NCBI RefSeq assembly: GCF_000013405.1
Contig: NC_007759.1
Span: forward strand, 1,303,001-1,367,000
Direction of reading: 5' to 3'
Source: Syntrophus aciditrophicus SB
GTDB taxonomy: Bacteria; Desulfobacterota; Syntrophia; Syntrophales; Syntrophaceae
DNA length: 64,000 nt
A model generated the notes under the pieces. It did no database searches. It saw nothing but the letters and a program-made list of their open reading frames with translations, and was not told the DNA's origin. A program made the position numbers and the translations under genes. Positions 32,599-37,326 of the stretch are shown here, one piece after another; positions within the stretch are counted from its first letter, which is position 1; the number at the start of each line of letters is the position of its first letter.

Positions 32599-35304
32599 CT
32601 ATCCCAGAGGTTTTCCTCCGTTTAGCTTTTCATAAATCCGGATATACTGGGCAATCATCGTCTGAAGGTCGTATTTTTCACGGCATTGCCTCATAATCCT
32701 CCGGATCTGGGCCTCACGCACCGCCGGGGGTTTCCGGTGAAATTTAATGCTTTTTTCCAGTCCGTACCACAATCCACCCGGATCATAATCCCGAAAAAGA
32801 AAGCCGTTGCCCACATCCTGGGGCGCGCCGTCCATTTTTAAGCGCAATTCGGTGATCTTGTCATGATAGCCGCCCGTATCCCGGTTCGTGGCTGTCGCGC
32901 CGAAAAGATTTCCCACCTGATCGATCTGTCCGCAGGGCTCGTAAAGGGATGCGCCGAAGACGTCGTTTGCCGCGGCAAAACCGAGCATAGACAGAGCTTC
33001 ATCAAAGCGGTGGTATGCGATTTTACCCTCGGAGCCATAGGCGATCCGGCCGAAAATCTCAACATGGGTGCGGTCGCTGCCAATTCCGTCCCCCACAATG
33101 GCGATCTGGGCGTCGGGATAGGCCGTCACGAATTTCTGAGCGATTGCCTCCAGAAGTTCGATGCCCTTCTGAACAGGATCCAGACGGGAAGGCCAGTAGA
33201 AGAGAATGGCGTCGGGGTTGACGTTCAGTCCGGTGCGCTGTTGAAAAGCCACCAGGTTTTCCCGCTTTGCCTGCAGAATGGGATCGTCCAGCCCGTATTT
33301 TCTGATTAGAAAAGGACAGTTTTCGGGGTACATGGAGGAGGCCGGGGCATTGATGATCGCCCGGGCTGCGTCATTGAAATACTTCGCTTTGACTTCATTC
33401 CTGACGCTGAGCGGGACAAGCGGGCGATCGAGAAAATAGTCTTCCACCACCTCGCGGAGAAATTGTTTTCCCACGAAATTGATTATCGTGGCATTTTTGA
33501 TCGCCGTTGCCTGGCAGTCAATGCATGGCTGGCCGTAAGCCTCCGAGTAGTAGAGATAATCGGAAATGCCGCTCAGATTGATTCCCGACAAAAGGTCCAG
33601 GGGCAGGTTTTCCGTGAAGACATTGTGCACCGTATGCAGAACGGGCACATCCGTCAATTTCGCATAGGCGGTGATCGCGCCGCCGGCCATCCAGTCATGG
33701 CTGTGGATGATCAGGCGGCCTTCGTGCTTTGAACGGACGATCTTAAGGATATTGTTGACGATTTCCCGCTGAAATTCGGCGGCGGTCCGCAGGGGATCCC
33801 CGGAATAAGCGCTGAGATTGTCGGCAAAAATGGCGGAACTGACCAGATGAATGTTCTCCGGATCGATTTTGTAGCGGATTTCCCGCCACTGACTCTCTGT
33901 CATCTGGGATTCCATCTGAAACCGCTTCTTCAGATTCAGGGTGGCCAGATGAACATCGATTCCTCTCTCCAGAAGTCCCTCGCACAGCGCGGAAACTACC
34001 TCGCCCTGGCCGCCGCTTTTTCCGGAGATGTATTTGGCCAGCATCCCCATGTCGAACGGCAGCCTCCCGGTTTCCGGGGTAATCAGAAGAATCGGCGTCT
34101 TTTCCGTTCGCTTCAGAATCTCGAAACGCTTGATGAACATCTCCAGATAGTCGATTTTTCGCGTCAGAATCTGAGTGGCGCGGATGGTCGATCGTTCATA
34201 GGGATTTTCGTAGCGGCAAAGGACATGTTCATCCATGCTCCGGTCTTTAAGGTAATAAATGTGGTCCGAAGCGGTCAGATTGCGCCAGCGGGTCAGCAGT
34301 TCTCCTCCTGCCCGGCGGGCCACGCCTTCCATGCCTTCCATATCCTTGAAAAGCTCAAACTGCGCCGCGCTTTCCAGCCAGCCGAAGGTATTTCTGATGA
34401 CATCCAGCCAGGAAGAGGTGGACAGACCGGAGATATCCAGGGAAGGAAGAGGCGCATCCTTGAAGCGGGTGGCGACGCTCGTCGGTGTTTCGACGAGGAG
34501 ATCCGGATATTGTTCCAGGGCGGCGGGCAATCCCCTCCAGAAGTCGAAAATGCCTTTTTCCTCGCGGATATGGCCGCCGATGTGCTCCAGATCGTAGCCG
34601 AGCAGAATCACCTCGCCGTCACCGCGCGCTATGGAGGCGGCATATTCTTCCGGAGTCAGGGGGTGACTGGAAAAACGGAAGGCCACATCGTTGCTGAGCG
34701 CGATATTACGGGGGATAACGACCAGATGGGTGCCCCGGGCGCGAAATACCGAATTGGGAGAAATTGATCCGGTGCCAGCGCCCATGTGTGAATTTTCTCT
34801 CGGTTCGCACAGAATGGAGACATAACCCATGTCGGCAACGATGTCGGCAATTGAATTGTTATAGATCAGCTCCGTATTTCGAAACGAAAGCGGAAATATG
34901 CCGAAGAGTTTTCTTATGGCTTCCCGGTGAAGAGAGACCTGATCCCGAAATTCCTGCTTGTGTGGATCGTTGAAGAGGGAGGCCAGGGAGTGATAATAGG
35001 TTTCACAGAGGAATTCGACCTGCTGACTTTCTTTTCCCGCGTCGAGAAGAGACCGCAGGGCCTGAATCAGGCTCGGATGATAAGTCTGGGCCTGTTCCAG
35101 AAAGGTCCCCGACATGCTCAGGGTAATCCGGAAACCGGGGTGATTCCGGATGAGATCGGTAAACATGCCGATTGCGGGGATATAAGAGCGTTCGGAGGCT
35201 TTAAGAAAAATTTCCCTGTTTTCTTCATCCCAGAGGAATTTATCCCTGTCGGGATGAAGACGCAGGGGCTGGTGCAGTTGAAAATAGAAAATCACAGATG
35301 ACAT
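32599..35304 (-). CDS. GH57 glycosidase-glycogen synthase (GT5) fusion
   Basis: 901 residues. The N-terminal half (about 1-405) is a GH57 glycoside hydrolase: start MSSVIFYFQLHQPLRLH, SFRNTELIYNN (probable nucleophile Glu) and YDLEHIGG. The C-terminal half (about 410-900) is a GT5 glycogen/starch synthase: the ADP-glucose loop usually KTGGL reads KSGGQGEV (about 435), HDWMAGGAITAY, RLDPVQKGIELL and YEPCGQIDQ, then DTGGYHD. Both activities would act on alpha-glucans, either synthesis plus branching or trimming. ATG has a poor ribosome site. It is convergent with the DUF4139 gene. Confidence 0.88.
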   Translation of the reverse strand: MSSVIFYFQLHQPLRLHPDRDKFLWDEENREIFLKASERSYIPAIGMFTDLIRNHPGFRITLSMSGTFLEQAQTYHPSLIQALRSLLDAGKESQQVEFLCETYYHSLASLFNDPHKQEFRDQVSLHREAIRKLFGIFPLSFRNTELIYNNSIADIVADMGYVSILCEPRENSHMGAGTGSISPNSVFRARGTHLVVIPRNIALSNDVAFRFSSHPLTPEEYAASIARGDGEVILLGYDLEHIGGHIREEKGIFDFWRGLPAALEQYPDLLVETPTSVATRFKDAPLPSLDISGLSTSSWLDVIRNTFGWLESAAQFELFKDMEGMEGVARRAGGELLTRWRNLTASDHIYYLKDRSMDEHVLCRYENPYERSTIRATQILTRKIDYLEMFIKRFEILKRTEKTPILLITPETGRLPFDMGMLAKYISGKSGGQGEVVSALCEGLLERGIDVHLATLNLKKRFQMESQMTESQWREIRYKIDPENIHLVSSAIFADNLSAYSGDPLRTAAEFQREIVNNILKIVRSKHEGRLIIHSHDWMAGGAITAYAKLTDVPVLHTVHNVFTENLPLDLLSGINLSGISDYLYYSEAYGQPCIDCQATAIKNATIINFVGKQFLREVVEDYFLDRPLVPLSVRNEVKAKYFNDAARAIINAPASSMYPENCPFLIRKYGLDDPILQAKRENLVAFQQRTGLNVNPDAILFYWPSRLDPVQKGIELLEAIAQKFVTAYPDAQIAIVGDGIGSDRTHVEIFGRIAYGSEGKIAYHRFDEALSMLGFAAANDVFGASLYEPCGQIDQVGNLFGATATNRDTGGYHDKITELRLKMDGAPQDVGNGFLFRDYDPGGLWYGLEKSIKFHRKPPAVREAQIRRIMRQCREKYDLQTMIAQYIRIYEKLNGGKPLG

Positions 35305-35364: not shown

Positions 35365-37326
35365 CTATTTCCGATCGACAAGAACAAAATATTTGGATAC
35401 CAGGCGCCTTGCTTTCGCGAGAAGTTTTCCGCTGTGAGGAGCGTTTTTTTGAACGTGAAAAAACTCAACTGTATTGTAAGAGCTTTCCGCGATATTTTCA
35501 AGAAATGAAATGAACCTTTCCTGGAGGGTAAACCGGTTTACAAATAATTCTCCCCAGTTGTTGAGACGAATGACGGAAAGAGTATGGATAACGTCGGCGT
35601 GGGGAGGAGCCGCGAAATTGATGATGATAAGCAATTTCTCCGTATGCTCCGGCTGCAGGAAATTCTGAAAATCGATGGAACTGACGTCGTAGACGCCGAA
35701 AACCTCACGGATTTTTTGCAGCAGATTGATGATTTCCTGCATTGCCGCCGAAGTCGGGTTGGGAAGCATCCGCAATTGCCCGGGGAAATAGAGATCGTTC
35801 CAGGCGAGGTAAGCAAGGCAGTACACGAGATCCCTCTTCTCAACGATCATTGCGCCGTCGTCGTTATCCGGGAAAACCTGCCACCTGTTTTCACAGAAGC
35901 GCAAGGTCAGCGAAGGCATTTTCAAGGTTTCCAGGGGCTTGGAAAGAACCGGGATCTTGTGCGGTTTCTTTTTCAGGGAAGCGGAAAGTTTTTGGCCAAG
36001 GATTGTCAGATCCTGAGCGGCCACATCACCCGTCACGTCCCTGGCGATATGGGCGATGTCTTTGTAGATGTCTACCAGGAGCAGGACGATGAATTCCCCA
36101 AACCGGATCTGCGAGGAATATGTCCAGGATGAAAAGCGATTGAGTTCATATATCGTCTCCCTGTCCAGCCCGTATCTCCGGAAAAGCTCGAGGGCCGTTT
36201 CCTCTTTGACCGTCATGGTTCTGGAAAAGAGTTTGACCTTATACCGCAGGTAAAAGCATTTCAGGATAAACTGGAGCGTTTGCGGGTCCATGTTCTGGTA
36301 AAAATCCAGGACGGCGATGAGCGTGAAAGCACCGGGGTCAACAAAGGAATGGGGCTTCCGGGGCTGATCGAGAATCAGCCGGCGGAAGCGGTGACAGAGA
36401 AGCTCCTCCTTCGGTGATTCGAGAAACATTTTCAGCAGCAGCATCTTGAGAATGGATTTGAGGGGATGAGTCAGTGATTTGTTGAACTGCCAGAGCGCCG
36501 CGCCGAAGGATTCTCTTTTATCTATGAAATCCAGATTTCCCAGATCGATCAGATCATAGTAGACCGACGGGGCGGACTGCCACTCCCTGACGGCATCATC
36601 ATAACACAGGGTTTGCCGCCGGTCCCAGGCAACCCACCAGAGGGGAATTTTGCCGGCTGTGAGTATGGCCGTCCGATAAAACTCTTCCTTGAGGACTTTT
36701 TTCTGGGTGCTGCCGCAGCTCTCACAATCCACGCCGCCAAACCGGCATGCACGGATATCCTCGACATCGCAGAGAAAAAAACAGACGGGCATTTTCAGCC
36801 GGGAATCCATCCAATCTTTGATCCGGTCGATTTTCAGGGTGAGCAGATCAAAGGCCTCTTCGTCGTAAAGCGTTTTGTCGATGCAGATCCAGAGATCGCA
36901 GTCCGAAGAGGAAGTCTGACTGATCGTCCCGACGCTTCCGATGGTGTAAATACCCTCGACGGGCAGGGATTTTTCAGCAGGCTTGAGCACGGTCAAGTCG
37001 TTCCGGATGTGGAAGGTTTTCTTGAAAAGGCGTTCCCGTTTCAGGATATCCTTTTCGGTTTCGATGTTGAAAACACGGAAATTTTGCTTTATATGATCAA
37101 CGTAACCGGGGATTGATACGTCGTTGACGCTGAGCATCCAGGGCAGCAGATAGAGGATGATCTCGCTGTCTTTCGGGGCAAGCTCGGAAAACAGACGCTT
37201 TCGGAACCGGTTGTATTCAAGAAAGATGCTTTTGTTTTGGATAAGAATTCTGGACAGGGCCATTCTGATTCCTGCGTCCTCCCTGCTTCGGCAAAGATCA
37301 ATTGCGGTTTTCCGGATGTTGTCCAA
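35365..37326 (-). CDS. cyaA: Class I adenylate cyclase
   Basis: 653 residues from TTG 37326; ATG 37260 (AGGA 6 bases upstream) is a good alternative and would give 631. The catalytic nucleotidyltransferase motif is GSVGTISQTSSSDCDLWIC (130-148) with Asp142 and Asp144, as in E. coli CyaA (GSTGSIGQTSSSD). LNKSLTHP-type KSLTHPLKSILKMLLLKMF also fits. It lacks about 200 residues of the E. coli C-terminal regulatory part. It makes cAMP from ATP. Divergent from hrpA. Confidence 0.87.
   Translation of the reverse strand: MDNIRKTAIDLCRSREDAGIRMALSRILIQNKSIFLEYNRFRKRLFSELAPKDSEIILYLLPWMLSVNDVSIPGYVDHIKQNFRVFNIETEKDILKRERLFKKTFHIRNDLTVLKPAEKSLPVEGIYTIGSVGTISQTSSSDCDLWICIDKTLYDEEAFDLLTLKIDRIKDWMDSRLKMPVCFFLCDVEDIRACRFGGVDCESCGSTQKKVLKEEFYRTAILTAGKIPLWWVAWDRRQTLCYDDAVREWQSAPSVYYDLIDLGNLDFIDKRESFGAALWQFNKSLTHPLKSILKMLLLKMFLESPKEELLCHRFRRLILDQPRKPHSFVDPGAFTLIAVLDFYQNMDPQTLQFILKCFYLRYKVKLFSRTMTVKEETALELFRRYGLDRETIYELNRFSSWTYSSQIRFGEFIVLLLVDIYKDIAHIARDVTGDVAAQDLTILGQKLSASLKKKPHKIPVLSKPLETLKMPSLTLRFCENRWQVFPDNDDGAMIVEKRDLVYCLAYLAWNDLYFPGQLRMLPNPTSAAMQEIINLLQKIREVFGVYDVSSIDFQNFLQPEHTEKLLIIINFAAPPHADVIHTLSVIRLNNWGELFVNRFTLQERFISFLENIAESSYNTVEFFHVQKNAPHSGKLLAKARRLVSKYFVLVDRK

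Follow-up and report, generated by a model that had tools for sequence, protein, structure and literature searches.

A GH57–GT5 fusion protein of Syntrophus and its order as a candidate for the missing GH57 glycogen branching enzyme

Thermotoga maritima AmyC was once classed among the GH57 alpha-amylases but turned out to be a branching enzyme (PMC6616209). A review published in 2024 pointed out that archaea without classical branching enzymes always keep a GH57 protein of the AAMY type, and asked whether this is the missing branching enzyme (PMC11046441). The AAMY subfamily is marked by its CSR features, with Q/E at position 1, R/E at position 12, and YY at positions 35–36 (PMC6037648). A description of a GH57–GT5 fusion was not found in the open-access literature searched. 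The constituent families are known; the architecture, the signature of the GT5 half, and the GlgB-dependent decay reported here are new as far as can be told.

The window, a stretch of 64,000 nucleotides analyzed here, is part of one 3,179,300-base contig of Syntrophus aciditrophicus. The initial annotation had placed a GH57 glycosidase and a GT5 glycogen synthase on one chain, and this observation is confirmed. The gene is a single unbroken open reading frame (Table 1), the protein matches both PF03065 (GH57; 192.5 bits, gathering cut-off 21.2) and PF08323 (Glyco_transf_5; residues 429–624, 49.1 bits, cut-off 22.7) in Pfam, and 73 fused homologues were found in the order. A frameshift joining two separate genes, or an assembly artifact, is excluded by fused orthologues across the order. 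Among the Syntrophus fusions, dN was 0.18–0.20 for the GH57 half and 0.07–0.10 for the GT5 half, with dS ranging from about 0.9 to saturation (NG86; YN00 was unusable because of saturation). Since dN lies well below dS in both halves, neither half drifts freely. An AlphaFold model computed from a four-sequence alignment reached a pLDDT of 37 and was set aside. The gene for a class I adenylate cyclase (cyaA) lies 60 bp upstream on the same strand, and co-transcription is possible. This pairing is kept at the loci L003, L004, L132, and L142. It is found in the Syntrophus copies and in G402 of family f111 (L142), hinting at a cAMP-linked control of glucan metabolism.

Table 1. Features of the fusion gene and its upstream neighbor (positions refer to the window)
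Feature	Position	Strand	Basis or remark
cyaA, class I adenylate cyclase	35365..37326	(−)	NF006981, 910 bits, above cut-off
GH57–GT5 fusion gene, 901 aa	32599..35304	(−)	single unbroken ORF; fused orthologues known
GH57 catalytic domain, alpha-amylase (AAMY) type, residues 5–284	34453..35292	(−)	PF03065; CSR-type motifs
Glu145, predicted GH57 nucleophile (FRNTE)	34870..34872	(−)	aligns with Glu123 of T. litoralis 4-alpha-glucanotransferase 1K1W
Asp238, predicted GH57 acid/base (GYDLEHIGGH)	34591..34593	(−)	aligns with Asp214 of 1K1W
GT5-type glycosyltransferase domain, residues about 400–895	32620..34107	(−)	Pfam, NCBIfam, and profile matches
KSGGQ loop, residues 429–433, counterpart of E. coli GlgA KTGGL	34006..34020	(−)	Lys429 invariant, Gln433 variable
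SRLDPVQKG, phosphate-binding Arg707 and Lys713 (E. coli R300, K305)	33163..33189	(−)	alignment to E. coli GlgA
EPCGQID, residues 789–795, catalytic Glu789 (E. coli E377), then subfamily signature	32920..32940	(−)	
TGGY, residues 810–813, replacing TGGL	32866..32877	(−)	

In a sample of 395 genomes of the phylum, the full fusion was confined to genomes of the same order. Within the order (155 genomes searched), fused copies occur in many families and in no genome of family f2. Orthologues sharing 60–82% identity were found in Syntrophus MAGs and many other genomes, the closest named relatives being Syntrophus MAGs at 77–82%. The comparison set comprised 94 proteins, of which 73 are nonidentical fusions of full length and 21 are close GT5 paralogues without the fusion. 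In the GH57 tree, fused and standalone domains fall into separate groups, the fused group itself being weakly supported, a topology that fits one old fusion. The close unfused GT5 copies may be products of fission or pre-fusion duplicates (tree support 0.24). Genomes (G), families (f), genera (g), and loci (L) are cited by working handles where needed.

The catalytic dyad of GH57 consists of a Glu nucleophile at beta4 and an Asp acid/base at beta7. In the GH57 half, a profile match predicts Glu145 and Asp238 as this pair, from sequence alone. The aligned residues of 1K1W, Glu123 and Asp214, are the catalytic ones of that enzyme. Glu145 is kept in 65 of the 73 fused proteins and an Asp is found at position 238 in 62. 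The motifs QLHQP, FRNTEL, and DHIYYL of the window protein carry the AAMY features (Q at CSR-1, R at CSR-3, and YY at CSR-5); in the majority of its fused relatives, CSR-5 reads YF instead. The BE_C domain (PF09210) was found neither in the Pfam scan of the fusion protein nor in any of 16 genomes (S. aciditrophicus and 15 relatives). A further type of GH57 protein is present in one Syntrophus relative (L247, G459:C154; motifs ALDGENAWEY and SDWFWWY), which shares only 23% identity with the standalone AAMY type.

The GT5 half resembles glycogen and starch synthases in profile searches (starch synthase 4, 6gne, E 4e-34; E. coli GlgA, 2qzs, E 1e-32). The alignment to the ADP-glucose-type glgA model TIGR02095 spans residues 429–894 and scored 123.3 bits, below the curated NCBIfam cut-off of 328.45. 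A GT5 active site was judged by the K of KxGG, the H of VHN, the R and K of SRLxxxQKG, and the E of EPCG, and the predicted catalytic residues K429, H560, R707, K713, and E789 are all retained. The two loops read as the initial annotation described them. It suggested that the donor or acceptor may differ. A survey of the fusion and its loops in other genomes, which it had called for, revealed a donor-side change that is real and subfamily-wide: EPCGL(T/S/P)Q is replaced by EPCGQIDQ (94/94 proteins), ALPV by ATATN, and TGGL by TGGY, the Tyr being present in 72 of 73 fused and 21 of 21 unfused members. The stretch ATATNRDTGGYHDK is near-invariant across all 94 fused and close unfused GT5 proteins, with rare variants only. 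EPCGL(T/S/P)Q, ALPV, and TGGL are the state in GlgA and in remoter GT5 homologues from other orders; the genes of many of these homologues belong to GT35–GT5–GlgB groups. Since the three changes are common to the unfused paralogues, they mark the GT5 subfamily and are not an effect of the fusion. The last position of KSGGQ is Q in 55, L in 17, and M in one of the fused proteins, and L in 16 and M in five of the 21 unfused ones; being variable, the Gln cannot alone define a new donor. A donor change specific to the fusion is thereby ruled out. GlgC above the NCBIfam cut-off was absent from 15 of 16 genomes searched, S. aciditrophicus included, so that ADP-glucose made by GlgC is unlikely to be the donor. 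The GlgC-like matches in S. aciditrophicus are RfbA, a cytidylyltransferase, and unnamed sugar nucleotidyltransferases; none is a GlgC.

The initial annotation had also stated that no other glycogen gene lies nearby. This is true of the window, where profile searches gave no other glycogen-family match, but in relatives GlgB or a GT3–GT35 protein, with or without a GH133 debranching enzyme (GDE), is encoded beside the fusion. The GT3–GT35 gene lies immediately upstream on the same strand in genomes of families f119 and f122 (G478–G484, G522, and G523), preceded in several by a GT4-like gene and GDE (the latter in G479, G480, G481, and G523). In f118 genomes, GlgB is located between the fusion and a DUF4139 gene. 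In the GlgB-less genomes G480 and G481, GDE is part of the fusion's operon, implying that there are branches to remove, and in these two and in GlgB-less G385 the debranching enzyme adjoins GT3–GT35 or fusion genes. In four near-complete genomes (G413, G414, G481, and G526), the fused GH57 is the sole PF03065 match and no GlgB match was found. In GlgB-positive G488, the neighbor of GlgB is a close member of the GT5 subfamily (L177:2536–8509), and no GH57 match was obtained genome-wide.

On the S. aciditrophicus chromosome, a glycogen cluster near 0.86–0.87 Mb encodes a GT4/5-like transferase, a standalone GH57 protein whose nucleophile is lost, a GT3–GT35 fusion, and, on the opposite strand, an unfused GT5. 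The GT3–GT35 protein (L036:10521–14774, 1418 aa) joins a glycogen synthase to an alpha-glucan phosphorylase, a synthetic and a degradative domain on one chain. It occurs in nearly all genomes with full-length GH57–GT5 fusions; the drafts G485 and G487 gave no match. The GT4/GT5 transferase (L036:8009–9304), a second synthase-like protein, precedes the standalone GH57, and its operon placement is conserved. A remnant of a GDE gene adjoins the cluster (L036:5290–5712), with fragments of 62 and 48 aa sharing 55% and 35% identity with the intact G406 gene. A GlgB-like gene is located at 0.585 Mb (L085). Its NCBIfam scores are below the curated cut-offs, and it owes its name to family resemblance and to its domain order (CBM48, GH13, C-terminal domain). 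With this GH13 gene present, the fusion is ruled out as the sole branching enzyme of S. aciditrophicus.

The presence of GlgB, scored by whole-genome searches with the GlgB protein of S. aciditrophicus as query, accompanies decay of the GH57 half. Among 25 GlgB-positive tips, 17 have a fused GH57 that no longer matches the canonical CSR-3/CSR-4 motif, as against one of 45 GlgB-negative tips (Fisher 2e-9, phylogeny ignored); the remaining 44 GlgB-less tips keep the catalytic motifs. When departures were mapped on a tree of the GT5 halves only, eight were inferred, seven of them on GlgB-positive branches, which make up 28% of the tree length (permutation p 0.0009). The ratio of GH57 to GT5 branch lengths was 2.70 in GlgB-positive and 1.29 in GlgB-negative parts of the tree. 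The standalone GH57 paralogue has lost the dyad, by several different substitutions, in 13 of 16 GlgB-positive and none of 42 GlgB-negative genomes. For both trees, a two-trait Markov model in which the rate of departure depends on GlgB fitted better than one with independent rates (LR 14.7 and 20.1, 1 df). Absence of GlgB may be false in draft genomes, but the pattern stands at a completeness of at least 90% (fused motif departed in 15/21 versus 1/33, standalone dyad lost in 11/14 versus 0/27 GlgB-positive versus GlgB-negative genomes). The p-values are to be taken as strong but not exact, since Fisher's test takes no account of phylogeny, parts of the gene trees have weak resolution, and the two GH57 genes come from the same genomes. 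The association was first noticed post hoc in the fused copy and then tested there, and the standalone paralogue is a partly independent case, some of its sequences (S. aciditrophicus, G271, G291, G385, G182, G329, and G157) having been seen before the idea was framed.

The departures in the fused copy differ in kind. Both dyad residues are lost in genus g8 of family f5 and in G406, the Asp is replaced by Glu in genus g264 of family f118, and CSR-4 is degraded in G479. In Syntrophus, the dyad is intact and GGH or GGY replaces GEH in CSR-4. There are exceptions on both sides: GlgB-positive f122, G467–G470, and G398 retain the fused motif, and GlgB-negative G291 has lost it, its standalone GH57 being intact. 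Overall, the fused GH57 half has a role that can be dispensed with once GlgB is present. In S. aciditrophicus, the fused GH57 retains the dyad and evolves under constraint; its activity may be reduced.

On balance, we slightly favor a two-headed alpha-glucan enzyme whose GT5 half extends and whose GH57 half branches, and which is a candidate for the missing GH57 branching enzyme. The C-terminal domain would add glucose from a nucleotide sugar, probably not GlgC-made ADP-glucose, to alpha-1,4 chains. The N-terminal AAMY-type domain would cleave such chains by a retaining mechanism, with Glu145 as nucleophile and Asp238 as acid/base, and hand the cut segment to another chain, yielding alpha-1,6 branches along with some hydrolysis. 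In the GlgB-less majority of the order, branching would fall to the fused GH57, the standalone paralogue, or both. In lineages with GlgB, the GH57 half would be under relaxed selection, possibly accounting for the altered CSR-4 in Syntrophus and for the dyad losses in other lineages. Branching is the simplest reading of the sequence data because it is GlgB's own reaction, GH57 enzymes are capable of it, AmyC provides a precedent, and GDE is present in the operon of G480 and G481. The absence of BE_C and the exceptions named above count against it. Sequence comparison directly shows the fusion and its conservation, the catalytic residues, the linkage to glycogen genes, and the loss of catalytic motifs with GlgB; branching in preference to hydrolysis or alpha-1,4 transfer, and the identity of the sugar donor, are inferences from it. 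The initial annotation's interpretation is partly supported: one chain could extend and trim or branch alpha-glucan.

The main rival to branching is a trimming or alpha-1,4-transfer role, in which the GH57 half would act as an alpha-amylase or 4-alpha-glucanotransferase on chains made by the GT5 half, dispensable with GlgB and needed without it. The association with GlgB is accommodated equally well by such a role, which predicts the same correlation, and the motifs of the window protein fit AAMY, whose sole characterized member, from Methanocaldococcus jannaschii, was assayed as a hydrolase (PMC11046441); a GH57 protein of Pontibacter acted as a 4-alpha-glucanotransferase (PMC11206854). The debranching enzyme kept in GlgB-less G480, G481, and G385 is not accounted for by trimming, which we regard as rather unlikely. 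A GH57 half that now serves mainly as a noncatalytic glucan-binding or structural module, leaving the GT5 half alone active, seems improbable given the near-invariance of the dyad in GlgB-less genomes, even though family f5 (G271 and kin), G406, and G291 keep the fusion and the GT5 motifs without the dyad, AAMY-like proteins lacking the dyad are a recognized group (PMC6037648), and dN in Syntrophus is about two to three times higher in the GH57 half than in the GT5 half.

The doubt may also concern the GT5 half, which could make another glucan or a glucoside with a changed donor or acceptor. The invariant EPCGQIDQ and near-invariant ATATN and TGGY on the donor side, the score far under the GlgA cut-off, the missing GlgC in 15 of 16 genomes, and the further candidate synthases (GT3 and GT4/5-like) are in line with this. 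However, the catalytic Lys, His, Arg/Lys, and Glu are all kept, the gene is linked with GT3–GT35, GDE, and GlgB, and distant GT5 homologues of other orders adjoin GT35 and GlgB, so we give little credence to a product other than glycogen.

Extended beyond this protein, the favored reading is that AAMY-type GH57 proteins, fused or free, form a second class of GH57 glycogen branching enzymes without BE_C, supplying branching where GlgB is missing, and that the fusion is a synthase and branching enzyme on a single chain; we consider the chances of this about even. If true, it would identify the glycogen-branching enzyme of those archaea and bacteria in which none of the known ones is present. The order represents a natural experiment across many lineages, in which GlgB accompanies motif decay in two different GH57 genes. 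The question becomes directly testable with mesophilic, expressible proteins, and a rule for archaea and bacteria follows, namely that AAMY-like proteins should lose the dyad in parallel with the presence of GlgB.

Among known systems, E. coli GlgA (2QZS; CAZy GT5) shares with the GT5 half the fold family, as judged by profile (E about 1e-32), and all five catalytic residues (Lys, His, Arg, Lys, and Glu). Compared to bacterial GlgA, the GT5 half is very divergent, with donor-side changes at EPCGQID, ATATN, and TGGY, and is joined to GH57. The chlamydial GlgA–GlgB fusion (GT5 and GH13) likewise joins a glycogen synthase to a branching-type glycosidase, but has GH13 in place of GH57, and its branching part was reported to be inactive (PMC11046441). 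The GH57 branching enzymes TK1436, TT1467, and AmyC are alike in family and catalytic mechanism, and in reaction by our proposal only; they belong to another GH57 subfamily and carry BE_C, which is absent from the 16 genomes tested here. Closest to the GH57 half are the AAMY and AAMY-like proteins of the M. jannaschii type, which share the length of about 395 aa, the CSR features, and the Glu/Asp dyad; an AAMY-like group lacks one or both dyad residues, as do GlgB-positive lineages of this order (PMC6037648). In contrast to typical members of the AAMY group, which are single-domain proteins of 414–443 aa, the domain is here fused to GT5, and its dyad loss tracks GlgB.
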